DNA from: a virus | Virus record (IMG/VR): IMGVR_UViG_3300036770_007547 | Coordinates: 124,001 to 188,000 of that record | Length of the DNA: 64,000 nucleotides | Strand: one strand, 5' to 3' | Notes under the pieces: generated by a model | The model's input: only the letters and a program-made list of their open reading frames with translations | Databases searched by the model: none | What the model was told of the DNA's origin: nothing | Position numbers and translations under genes: made by a program | Part shown: positions 9,383 through 23,466 of the stretch, one piece after another | Position numbering within the stretch: the first letter of the stretch is position 1 | Layout: each line of letters starts with the position of its first letter

Positions 9383-9967
9383 TTATAGATCCTTTCCAGT
9401 ATTTATACGTTCCAAAAAAGACTCGATTGGCAGATGAGAGATGTTTGATACACGATCCAGATCTAGATGTCGTGCTGTGGTAGGACCTTGCACACGCACA
9501 AATTCTCGATCTGGAAAATCATTGGCCACACGCACCAACTGGCGTATCCAGTTTCCGGTGTAAGTTGGTGCGGCACCTTGTGGTTTGTAGTTGTCGGTAC
9601 CAGCATACAAATTGTTGAACTTGCCGTCTTGGTTGGGCCCAAGATCAAATCCCAAGAGATAGATGCGTCGATGACGATCTTGCGCAGCTATGGCCACAGC
9701 GATGGGGCCTGAACTGAATCCAAAATAGGGTTTTGGCACTGGCTCAGCTCCGAGATCGGGCAAGGGGCGTCGTGTGTAAAATCTATTTTCTCGACTGTAT
9801 CCACTTTCTTGTATGACTCGGGCGATGGGGTGATCTGTGGCTATCAGGGCTGTGACTCGATGTGTGCGATACAAGGCGTTGCACCCATACACCCGGCCAA
9901 GAGTCATGAGATGGTCAATGTCGATGTTTTCACGGCTCACGCCGTTGCCTAACACAAATGCTGTCAT
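9383..9967 (-). CDS. Conserved phage protein, possible DUF115/MptE-like Rossmann-type domain (194 aa)
   Basis: The gene ends directly at the start of the next gene, with no intergenic space. Its composition (charged, few Asn/Gly repeats) differs from the surrounding fibre genes. The N-terminus MTAFVLGNGVSRENID, then VYGCNALYR and LIATDHP, resembles the LGNGPSL-type opening of DUF115/MptE-like proteins, which bind nucleotide or sugar substrates; that link is only suggestive. A second conserved-looking stretch is IYLLGFDLG. Translation is probably controlled by a hairpin covering its ribosome site (9973-9999). It could be an enzyme acting on fibre or host glycans, but no function is assigned. 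Confidence 0.6.
   Translation of the reverse strand: MTAFVLGNGVSRENIDIDHLMTLGRVYGCNALYRTHRVTALIATDHPIARVIQESGYSRENRFYTRRPLPDLGAEPVPKPYFGFSSGPIAVAIAAQDRHRRIYLLGFDLGPNQDGKFNNLYAGTDNYKPQGAAPTYTGNWIRQLVRVANDFPDREFVRVQGPTTARHLDLDRVSNISHLPIESFLERINTGKDL
9400..9407 (-). promoter_or_regulatory. Late promoter, perfect TATAAATA
   Basis: An exact match to the T4 late consensus on the minus strand, 18 bases upstream of the 228-aa gene and inside the 3' end of the preceding coding region. The predicted leader of about 12 bases includes AAAGGA. Confidence 0.75.
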
Positions 9968-14287: not shown

Positions 14288-15073
14288 TCACTGCACTACT
14301 GACTTGGTGTTCACACCAGTGGCCTGGGCCAGGTGTGGTTTTACCGCGGGCTTGACGTTGGGCTTGGTGGTACCACCCATGTCTTGAGCCTTGGGCGCAG
14401 GACGACCATTTTCTTCGCCGCCCACTTCTTTCACGGGTTTGGCAACAGCACCGCGACTGCCGCTGTTGGCAGCTACCACGGCCTTTTTGTTGATTCCACC
14501 CTCTTCGCTGGTGACTGGCTTGGGAGCAGATTTGAGATCTACGTTCTCCATCATGCCCTCGGTTTCAAATTCGTCGTCGACCACTTCTTCGCTGTCCATG
14601 TCAACATCGATGTCATCGCCGCCCATGTCTGCGGTGTCATCCATGTCCACTTCGCCGGCATCGCCGCCGCCCATGAGCTCTTCAAATTCGGCCATGAGTT
14701 CGTCCAGCTTGTCTTCGAGATCGACCACACGGTCTTCGAGTTCTTCGTCGCCGCCAACGTCGTCGTGATGATCGTCTTCGTCTTCTTCGGCTTCCATGGA
14801 AATTCCGGTCTCTTCGGCTTCTACATCATCGATGAGATCGTCGGCTTGATCACCACCCATGGCAGTTTCGTCCATGTCGTGCATGCCTTCTTCCATCTTG
14901 TCTTTTTCTTCTTCGTCGTGATCTTCGGCCTCGTCAACTTCTTCGGCTTCTTCTTGCATCATCTCTTCGTAGATCTGACGGCTTTTTTCTACGACGATGT
15001 CATGGAAAAGCTCGCGAGCTTTGGCATCTTCGTCGTTGATCACGTATTCGATCAGTTGTTCAAATTTATTCAT
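14288..15073 (-). CDS. Acidic prohead core protein (261 aa)
   Basis: I start at the ATG 15071-15073 (MNKFEQLIEYVINDEDAKA), because the GGAGGA five bases upstream is the ribosome site; an in-frame TTG four codons earlier would overlap it. The N-terminal 45 residues (ending VVEKSRQIYEEMM) match, from memory, the prohead core proteins beside gp21 in cyanophage-type genomes. The middle (about 45-175) is a very acidic Asp/Glu tract with V-D-L-E-D-K-L-D-E-L coiled coil. The C-terminus is Lys/Pro/Gly-rich and disordered. It is probably part of the degradable scaffold, analogous to T4 gp67/gp68. Confidence 0.8.
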   Translation of the reverse strand: MNKFEQLIEYVINDEDAKARELFHDIVVEKSRQIYEEMMQEEAEEVDEAEDHDEEEKDKMEEGMHDMDETAMGGDQADDLIDDVEAEETGISMEAEEDEDDHHDDVGGDEELEDRVVDLEDKLDELMAEFEELMGGGDAGEVDMDDTADMGGDDIDVDMDSEEVVDDEFETEGMMENVDLKSAPKPVTSEEGGINKKAVVAANSGSRGAVAKPVKEVGGEENGRPAPKAQDMGGTTKPNVKPAVKPHLAQATGVNTKSVVQ

Positions 15074-15102
15074 GTCTTCCTCCAAAAGGTGAATGGCTCT
15101 GT

Positions 15103-15121
15103 CAAGATATTTAATATCTTG
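15103..15121 (-). promoter_or_regulatory. Palindrome with a degenerate late element ATTAAATA
   Basis: Nine-base arms (CAAGATATT and complement) flank a single central base. On the minus strand ATTAAATA (15108-15115) lies inside the palindrome, with a predicted start about 29 bases before the acidic core protein's ATG. It could be a weak late promoter, a protein-binding site, or both. Confidence 0.4.
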
Positions 15122-15159
15122 TCAAAAAAAGCGTGGTTATTGGAGTCTTTTTTGTGATA

Positions 15160-15406: not shown

Positions 15407-15414
15407 TATTTATA
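15407..15414 (-). promoter_or_regulatory. Late promoter, perfect TATAAATA embedding the gp20 stop
   Basis: The TAA stop of gp20 (15410-15412) is the centre of the octamer. It is the likely main promoter for the downstream run of core protein, gp21, gp22 and gp23. The predicted start (about 15401) is two bases from the 72-aa gene's ATG. Confidence 0.75.
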
Positions 15415-21871: not shown

Positions 21872-21879
21872 TATAAATA
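21872..21879 (+). promoter_or_regulatory. Late promoter, perfect TATAAATA, for gp26-gp51
   Basis: The predicted start near 21885 gives a 27-base leader to gp26. It faces the minus-strand element at 21892-21899, so the two transcripts overlap at their 5' ends. Confidence 0.75.
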
Positions 21880-21911: not shown

Positions 21912-22748
21912 ATGGAAACCAATCCCTTACGCCAGTATTTCCGGCAACCCGCCATCTATGTAAAATTGCCATCTGGCGGCAAATACTACCCCAAAGACAG
22001 CCTGGAGGTCACCGAAAACGGAGAGTATCCGGTGCTGCCCATGACCACCATGGACGAGATCACTTACCGTACACCAGATGCCTTGTTCAACGGCACTGCT
22101 TCGGTGAATGTGATCCAGAGCTGTGTGCCCAACATCAAAAATGCCTGGCACATGCCCAGCATGGACATTGACACTGTGCTGATAGCCATACGCATAGCCA
22201 GTTATGGTCATGAACTCAAACTGGACACCCAGTGCACCAAGTGTGCCAGCATCAACACGTTTGGCGTGGACTTGCGCACAGTGATGGAACGCATGCGTGC
22301 TCCGGACTACAGCCAGACCCAGACCCTGGGTGACCTCGAAATCTATTTCAAACCCATGGATTATCGGCAGATCAATGACAACAACATGATGCAGTTTGAA
22401 GACCAAAAGATGCTGCAAATGCTACAAGATGCCAACGTCAACGACGAGGACAAGCTGCGTCAAGTCGGTGATGTGCTGCGGAAAATCACCAGCATGACCA
22501 CACGGGCCTTGGCACAAAACATTGCCATGATCAAGACTCCCCAGGCCACAGTGACCGAGATCGAGTGGATCTCCGATTGGCTGGAAAACTGCGATCGTAG
22601 CACGTTTTCCAGCATACGCGATCACATCATCAACACCAAGCAGCAGGGCGAGCTACAGCCGCTGAAGATACAGTGCCCAGACTGCCAGAACGAGTACGAG
22701 CAACCATTCACCTTGGACATGGCAAATTTTTTCGCGGACGCCTCCTGA
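21912..22748 (+). CDS. 26: Baseplate hub subunit / tail assembly factor gp26
   Basis: The 278-aa protein opens METNPLRQYFRQPAIYVKLP, then SGGKYYP, L-P-M-T-T-M-D-E-I, T-P-D-A-L and V-I-Q-S-C-V-P-N-I-K-N-A-W, the conserved core of gp26-type hub proteins in T4-like phages. Two C-x-x-C pairs (CTKC near 107 and CPDC near 255) look like a zinc ribbon. T4 gp26 is a hub-assembly factor. The gene lies directly beside the tape measure, where tail-assembly chaperones are usually encoded. Its last codons contain a slippery run (22724-22733) leading into gp51. Confidence 0.82.
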   Translation: METNPLRQYFRQPAIYVKLPSGGKYYPKDSLEVTENGEYPVLPMTTMDEITYRTPDALFNGTASVNVIQSCVPNIKNAWHMPSMDIDTVLIAIRIASYGHELKLDTQCTKCASINTFGVDLRTVMERMRAPDYSQTQTLGDLEIYFKPMDYRQINDNNMMQFEDQKMLQMLQDANVNDEDKLRQVGDVLRKITSMTTRALAQNIAMIKTPQATVTEIEWISDWLENCDRSTFSSIRDHIINTKQQGELQPLKIQCPDCQNEYEQPFTLDMANFFADAS

Positions 22749-22963
22749 CCCTAGATGCTGACCGCATCACCAAATGGATTGATCAGATGGAAAAGGAGGC
22801 CAAGATCATCCGCGCCGAAACTCTCAAAATGTGCTGGCACATGCGTGGTGGTCTCAGCTACACCGAGGCCATGAATCTCAGCCAGGGCGAACGCGACGAG
22901 ATCGCTACCATGATCAAAGATCATCTGGAAACCACCAAGAAAAGCGGATTACCTTACTTTTAA
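22673..22963 (+). CDS. 51: Baseplate hub assembly protein gp51-like, probably made by -1 frameshift from gp26
   Basis: The open frame is -1 relative to gp26 and overlaps its end. The conserved part begins F-F-R-G, L-L-T-L-D-A-D-R-I-T-K-W and ends C-W-H-M-R-G-G-L-S-Y, then L-E-T-T-K-K-S-G-L-P-Y-F, matching the gp51-type hub-assembly proteins of aquatic T4-likes. No ATG precedes the conserved start. The only candidates are a GTG at 22673 without a ribosome site and an ATG at 22787 that would remove the first third. Entry by slipping at A-AAT-TTT (22724-22730) would fuse it to gp26. The coordinates given are those of the open frame, not of a proven start. Confidence 0.75.
   Translation: MPRLPERVRATIHLGHGKFFRGRLLTLDADRITKWIDQMEKEAKIIRAETLKMCWHMRGGLSYTEAMNLSQGERDEIATMIKDHLETTKKSGLPYF
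22724..22733 (+). promoter_or_regulatory. Candidate -1 ribosomal frameshift site (A AAT TTT TTC)
   Basis: In the gp26 frame the codons are GCA AAT TTT TTC. This satisfies X-XXY-YYZ as A-AAT-TTT and again as T-TTT-TTC. Slipping back one base bypasses the gp26 stop at 22746-22748 and enters the gp51 frame exactly where its conserved sequence begins. Confidence 0.65.
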
Positions 22964-23466
22964 TGGATCAAGTGCAGGCCAGAATTGATGTCACGAACTG
23001 GATCACTGGATTCGTGGAAAAACCTTCGCCGTTGTTGAATGGATGGCCGCCGTGTCCCTATGCTCGGCAGGCCCGGCTAGAGAATCGCGTGGATATACGC
23101 ATGGGATCTCACCCCTATCACGATCTCGAGCAGCTGGCAACACAGGGCTTGGGCGATCTAGACGTGGTGGTGCTGGTGTACGATCCCGGTCAATTTGATC
23201 TGCTCACGTTCCGCAAACACTGGCAATCGGCACAGCAACATCTGCATGCCCGTGGCCTTTTGGTGCTGGAAGATCATCCCAGCGAGCCCGAGATGGTGCG
23301 CGGAGTTTGCATGAATCAAGGCACCTGGGCTTTGTTGTTTGTGCAGGACCTCAAGCGGCTCAACGATGCTGCCCAGCAGCTGGCCACCAAAGGTTACTAT
23401 CACAATTGGCCGCGCGAGTATCTCAACGATCTGTTCCAAGGTCGTGCAGATCCAACACAGACTTGA
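22963..23466 (+). CDS. Conserved phage protein of unknown function (167 aa)
   Basis: The start overlaps the gp51 stop (TAATG), so it is coupled; longer in-frame starts lie within gp51. The motif L-N-G-W-P-P-C-P-Y-A-R-Q-A near residues 25-40 is the recognisable feature and recurs, from memory, in unassigned proteins of aquatic T4-like phages. The central VVVLVYDPGQFD strand and R-G-L-L-V-L-E-D-H-P suggest an alpha/beta fold. The 3' end overlaps the convergent 228-aa gene by 44 bases. The function is unknown; operon position links it to tail assembly only by location. Confidence 0.7.
   Translation: MDQVQARIDVTNWITGFVEKPSPLLNGWPPCPYARQARLENRVDIRMGSHPYHDLEQLATQGLGDLDVVVLVYDPGQFDLLTFRKHWQSAQQHLHARGLLVLEDHPSEPEMVRGVCMNQGTWALLFVQDLKRLNDAAQQLATKGYYHNWPREYLNDLFQGRADPTQT

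Follow-up and report, generated by a model that had tools for sequence, protein, structure and literature searches.

In phage lambda, the tail assembly chaperones G and GT are reportedly made as a short form and a form extended by a -1 ribosomal frameshift near the end of the short gene, which adjoins the tape measure gene (Levin, Hendrix and Casjens 1993; Xu, Hendrix and Duda 2004). The tail assembly chaperones of T4-like phages were identified by Vladimirov, Gautam and Davidson (2022, Virology 566:9-15), according to PMC10885494 and PMC12846349. The first of these papers describes T4-like phages that have a short and a long gene in place of frameshifting; the second cites Vladimirov et al. 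2022 for slippery sequences with T runs in T4-like chaperone genes. PMC12846349 also presents the tail chaperone of the Vandenendeviridae and Andersonviridae, with short and long forms and a -1 frameshift at a T run (GTTTTT), as at the locus studied here, although these viruses are a different phage group from the present lineage. T4 gp51 is needed for assembly and is absent from the particle (PMC3004832). A previous sequence-only reading of this DNA was not aware of a description of a frameshift at gp26/gp51; in view of these papers the kind of system is already known, and what the present locus can add is its lineage and a covarying stem.

We analysed a stretch of 64,000 nucleotides (the window), positions 124,001 to 188,000 of the virus record IMGVR_UViG_3300036770_007547, whose features are collected in Table 1. 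We found that the product of the gene starting at 21912 belongs to PF12322, 'T4 bacteriophage base plate protein' (E 5.2e-15, above the curated cut-off), the family of both T4 gp26 and T4 gp51, and that it matches the baseplate hub family PHROG 150 (E 2.6e-17). Its AF2 model reached a pLDDT of 89, and the top BFVD matches were T4-like baseplate hub proteins. A comparison with solved tail-chaperone structures gave no significant PDB match by sequence or fold, so we group the protein as working like G/GT and not as a member of the G/GT protein family, which differs by sequence from PF12322. Understood as such a working likeness, the proposed correspondence of the product pair to lambda G/GT was upheld. 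The exact late promoter consensus TATAAATA was found three times in the window against 0.25 expected, at 9400-9407 and 15407-15414 on the minus strand and at 21872-21879 on the plus strand, and the last of these is a putative late promoter of the chaperone gene.

Table 1. Features of the chaperone locus, in window coordinates
Feature	Position	Strand	Remarks
Likely tape measure protein, 1550 aa	17206..21858	-	head-to-head with the chaperone gene; weak match to PHROG 23574 (E 8e-5)
T4-type late promoter consensus TATAAATA, matched exactly	21872..21879	+	32 nt 5' of the chaperone ATG
Tail assembly chaperone, short form (TAC-N; lambda G-like, T4 gp26-like)	21912..22748	+	278 aa, frame 0 to TGA 22746-22748
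Overlapping heptamer A_AAT_TTT	22724..22730	+	additional slippery site, restricted to part of the lineage (minority of relatives)
Slippery heptamer T_TTT_TTC, conserved -1 frameshift site	22727..22733	+	66/68 representatives
TAC-C extension, -1 frame	22733..22963	+	76 aa, all-helical; C-terminal domain of the 350-aa TAC-NC (lambda GT-like, T4 gp51-like)
Stem 5' arm GCCUCCU	22740..22746	+	begins 6 nt after the heptamer
Stem 3' arm AGGAGGC	22794..22800	+	window fold; pairing kept in 24/24 aligned relatives

The product of the neighbouring minus-strand gene has an M15-type peptidase domain (VanY, E 4e-6), with which the tail might cut the cell wall. Judged from its sequence, this product is likely the tape measure protein and would then be the probable client of the chaperones. 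Lambda G lies directly upstream of the tape measure gene on the same strand, whereas here the chaperone gene stands head-to-head with a gene whose tape measure assignment comes from a weak match. The cyanophages P-SSM5 and S-CAM1 also differ from the window in this respect, their chaperone gene being followed on the same strand by a long ORF where a tape measure gene would be expected. In Bacillus phage SP-15 (L196) and Listeria phage LIS04 (L197), a PF12322 gene was found just before the tape measure gene; its extension lies in the +1 (or -2) frame after GAR TTT TTT, not in the -1 frame, and a different shift would be needed there.

The chaperone gene ends, at 22719-22748, in ATG GCA AAT TTT TTC GCG GAC GCC TCC TGA. 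The sequence-only reading had let it end in GCA AAT TTT TTC; this sequence is present, but the gene runs four codons past the slip before it stops. We compared 150 loci with 106 distinct junctions, from which 68 representatives less than 90% identical were taken; eleven weak, distant and mostly partial matches (L174-L184), most of them without the heptamer at the expected place, were omitted. T_TTT_TTC was kept in 66 of these 68 representatives, the other two being XacN1 (T_TTT_TTT) and L098, in which A_AAT_TTT is retained and followed by TCC. The double slippery run that had been noted in the window is real in that both heptamers are there, but only T_TTT_TTC is near-universal in relatives; A_AAT_TTT, for which conservation across junctions had been anticipated, is absent from most of them and was rejected as the main slip site. 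An in-frame T_TTT_TTC with an open -1 frame was identified at the same place in the window, the first 18 IMG/VR relatives, Atu_ph07, Phosso and PA5oct. The heptamer was likewise found in the jumbo phages BF, XaC1, Munch, CBB, RaK2 and GAP32, as well as in cyanophages, Rhizobium LG08, Cronobacter S13 and Vibrio 2.275.O. In place of T_TTT_TTC, lambda has G_GGA_AAG.

Altogether, about 98 distinct relatives share the heptamer, the -1 frame and an extension of conserved length. Homopolymers at a frame change are typical error sites in general, and the site might come from faulty sequencing or assembly or from a gene that broke recently; this reading is refuted by the recurrence of the site in independent records, isolate genomes among them, with about 98 distinct junctions, and its probability is negligible. 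The codon 5' of the heptamer was AAT, AGT, CAT, GAT, ACT, GCT, CGT or TAT in the 68 representatives, encoding eight amino acids (N, S, H, D, T, A, R, Y) with an invariant final T. Calculated from the codon usage of these genes, such invariance has a probability of about 1e-4 in 13 lineages less than 50% identical and a far smaller one in larger sets, figures that are only indicative given shared ancestry. Conservation of the last C of the heptamer is partly due to the Arg codon of the -1 frame. The arrangement goes beyond chance: of the 43 window ORFs of at least 200 aa, two combined an X_XXY_YYZ heptamer (Y = A/T) among their 15 final codons with a -1 frame open for at least 70 codons, the other being 14333-15157, which lies opposite a minus-strand ORF. 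Since bare TTTTTTC is common in the window (16 against 7.4 expected), the case rests on conservation and not on the motif.

The second frame is exactly -1 to 21912-22748, as had been read from the letters; it is already open before the slip and has its first stop at the TAA at 22961-22963. The extension that it encodes was conserved in 40 aligned sequences, opening at the slip with R-x-R/K-L-L; its length was 76 aa nearly always, and 70-73 aa in the enteric jumbo group and PA5oct. It was predicted to be all-helical, with an AF2 pLDDT of 89.5, and searches of Pfam and PHROGs with the window extension gave no match. Upstream, the -1 frame was often closed 10-50 nt before the 0-frame stop. The candidate starts of this frame in the window were limited to an unconserved GTG at 22673, which precedes the slip, and to ATGs at 22787 and beyond, 18 codons into the conserved extension, in agreement with the earlier view that the conserved -1 sequence begins at the slip without a usable start.

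The -1 ORF could instead be a separate gene whose translation is coupled to, or reinitiates at, the end of the upstream gene. The 0-frame stop of Atu_ph07 and Phosso is overlapped by an ATG (ATGA), and the annotation of Phosso follows this reading. The absence of a gp51 ATG, which the sequence-only reading had proposed to look for in relatives, was found in 59 of the 68 representatives, window included, when codons -4 to +10 were inspected; nine do have an ATG there, some as ATGA, where reinitiation could occur. ATG, GTG and TTG were all missing from these codons in 48 representatives, and in none of the 68 did an ATG near the slip come with a Shine-Dalgarno match of at least 5 bases. Moreover, the residue at codon 1 of the extension is Met in some members and I, V or L in others, indicating that the Met need not be a start and can be a plain hydrophobic residue. 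A separate gene would also leave T_TTT_TTC and the invariant T before it unexplained. We therefore consider a separate gene improbable, and frameshifting at T_TTT_TTC the preferred reading.

PHROG 18291 (59 aa) matches the extension of the enteric jumbo group from residue 13 on, which is the ATG used in those annotations. For Munch, CBB, GAP32 and XaC1, the annotations show in place of the extension a small hypothetical protein that begins at a downstream ATG, an annotation artefact like the start of PHROG 18291. At its other end, the -1 frame terminates in a stop codon that shares bases with the ATG of the following ORF (TAATG, 22961-22965), which suggests translational coupling of this ORF (22963-23466, 167 aa) to frameshifted ribosomes; weak relatives of the ORF were found in HMO-2011, CRP-345 and S-RIM32.

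We further identified that a stem of 7 to 17 base pairs is possible in most members, with its 5' arm about 6 nt past the heptamer and its 3' arm within the extension, at a distance that takes at least three values among the members; the arms of L014, for instance, are AAGGCUUUUGUAUCUU and AAGAUACAAAAGCCUU. The 5' arm paired with its own downstream region better than with those of other phages (mean -15.4 against -11.9 kcal/mol; 0/5000 permutations), a test that is partly phylogenetic because arms are shared within a clade. Redrawing the downstream region with synonymous codons weakened the pairing with p<0.05 in 26 of 59 representatives, compared with 1 of 118 upstream control arms. In the register of Atu_ph07 and L014, 96.4% of cells were paired and covariation was 0.564, against 0.197 when shuffled and at most 0.215 when slid, and in the window's register 24 of 24 sequences paired throughout with one compensated position; the sets behind the 0.564 and the 24 of 24 were picked by register, so that the permutation and synonymous-codon tests are the fairer ones. 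These results point to the covarying stem as a likely stimulator of the frameshift.

A stimulatory structure downstream of the slip had been suggested as something to model; such structures are expected 5-9 nt after the heptamer, and across the set a stem at +7 covaries, but it is weak in the window alone and is not seen in the enteric jumbo group. The window region containing GCCUCCU and AGGAGGC folded at -20.6 kcal/mol (z -1.84), which, with a synonymous test p of 0.20, is not significant, and the window's own stem taken alone is suggestive only. Neither the permutation nor the synonymous-codon test revealed a clear long-range stem in the enteric jumbo group. An Rfam search of the locus gave no match, and a literature search limited to open papers found no description of the stem, which may be new to the literature. 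The AGGAGG in the extension was also considered as an internal Shine-Dalgarno site; this was rejected, as no start codon lies at a usable distance in the window and the 3' arm of the stem fits better.

The stem also bears on whether the ribosome or RNA polymerase would slip on the T run. The run consists of six T, on which polymerase slippage might make the fusion; runs that support transcript slippage usually have eight or more, so that six T is short for it, and the covarying stem 6 nt downstream, together with the exact X_XXY_YYZ phasing, fits a ribosomal slip. Polymerase slippage is accordingly very improbable. A programmed -1 ribosomal frameshift, which had been proposed to join the two frames, agrees with the conserved T_TTT_TTC, the -1 frame and the extension without its own start, and it very probably makes the long chaperone form; the conserved site, frame and extension, the covariation of the stem and the occurrence of one gene or two come from sequence comparison, and the slip itself, its rate and the chaperone role are inferred.

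T4 genes 26 and 51 are on opposite strands and both encode whole PF12322 proteins, gp51 having about 48 extra residues. The identification of the -1 ORF as T4 gene 51 was therefore abandoned: the ORF is only the C-terminal domain of a fusion that is likely equivalent to gp51, and the name 'gp51' follows cyanophage annotation. We found two PF12322 genes, a divergent short and long pair, in T4 and four T4-like phages. In these two-gene phages no slippery heptamer is present in the short gene (26), whose end reads GAG TTC TTT GAG or similar, and its -1 frame closes at once. A single PF12322 gene was present in ten complete jumbo phages and in the window's own record, where a single copy is less telling than in complete genomes since the record, with 222,775 bases, may be a fragment. 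P-SSM5, S-CAM1, LG08, S13, Vibrio 2.275.O and CM1 also have a single PF12322 gene. The present lineage thus shares PF12322 and short and long forms with the T4-like gp26 and gp51, but it has one gene plus a probable frameshift where T4 and its close kin have two separate divergent genes without a slippery site. P-SSM5 and S-CAM1, annotated with gp26 and a small 'gp51' ORF, resemble the window in T_TTT_TTC, the -1 extension and the single PF12322 gene, and differ in an extension of about 60 aa that is a closer match to the end of T4 gp51.

The extensions of the cyanophages, LG08 and S13 matched the T4 gp51 C-terminus (hhalign E 2.4e-7, probability 93). The match between the window-type extension and the cyanophage extensions was weaker (E 2.6e-4, probability 42), and the window extension compared directly with the T4 gp51 C-terminus alone gave a weak match (E 0.003, probability 10). 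The full fusion profile aligned collinearly with the gp51 profile (E 1.2e-4, probability 55), which, together with the matches of the extensions to the gp51 C-terminus, indicates that the fusion, and not the small ORF, is likely the gp51 counterpart. The frameshift product would then likely be the equivalent of gp51 (lambda GT) and the unshifted product that of gp26 (lambda G). At the level of coding capacity, a short form and a long form with a C-terminal extension come from one gene plus a -1 frame here and from two genes in T4. In addition, L200 and L201, from the phylum of the L186 genome, encode PF12322 proteins beside phage-tail-like genes, probably of contractile injection systems, with an extension-like C-terminus (YGWAERDILALSPWRRQAYL) fused in frame; perhaps only the long form is made there.

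Based on these comparisons, we propose that the gene at 21912 encodes the tail assembly chaperone of a T4-related phage. Most ribosomes would stop at 22746-22748 and make the 278-aa TAC-N, while a fraction would slip back by one base on U_UUU_UUC (22727-22733), aided by the stem 6 nt downstream, and continue in the -1 frame to make the 350-aa TAC-NC with its helical C-terminal domain, which would be rarer than the short form. By analogy with lambda G and GT, both forms may coat the tape measure protein, recruit tail tube subunits and be absent from the virion. T4 obtains the same two products from the separate paralogous genes 26 (short) and 51 (long). We give about even chances to a broader proposal, in which a long-range stem drives the frameshifting of this chaperone family, with its 5' arm fixed about 6 nt after the slip and its 3' arm moved among at least three positions in the coding sequence of the extension; the ratio of short to long form would then be a tuned, conserved quantity, replaced in T4 by the split into two divergent paralogues.

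These results correct a systematic misannotation: the annotations of many jumbo phages and cyanophages lack the extension, shorten it to begin at a later ATG or call it gp51. With the covarying stem as a defined target, frameshift stimulation could be measured for unculturable phages. Together, one frameshifting gene and two paralogous genes for the same two products make a clean comparative case, and this contrast could be used to test why the relative amounts of short and long tail chaperone matter.
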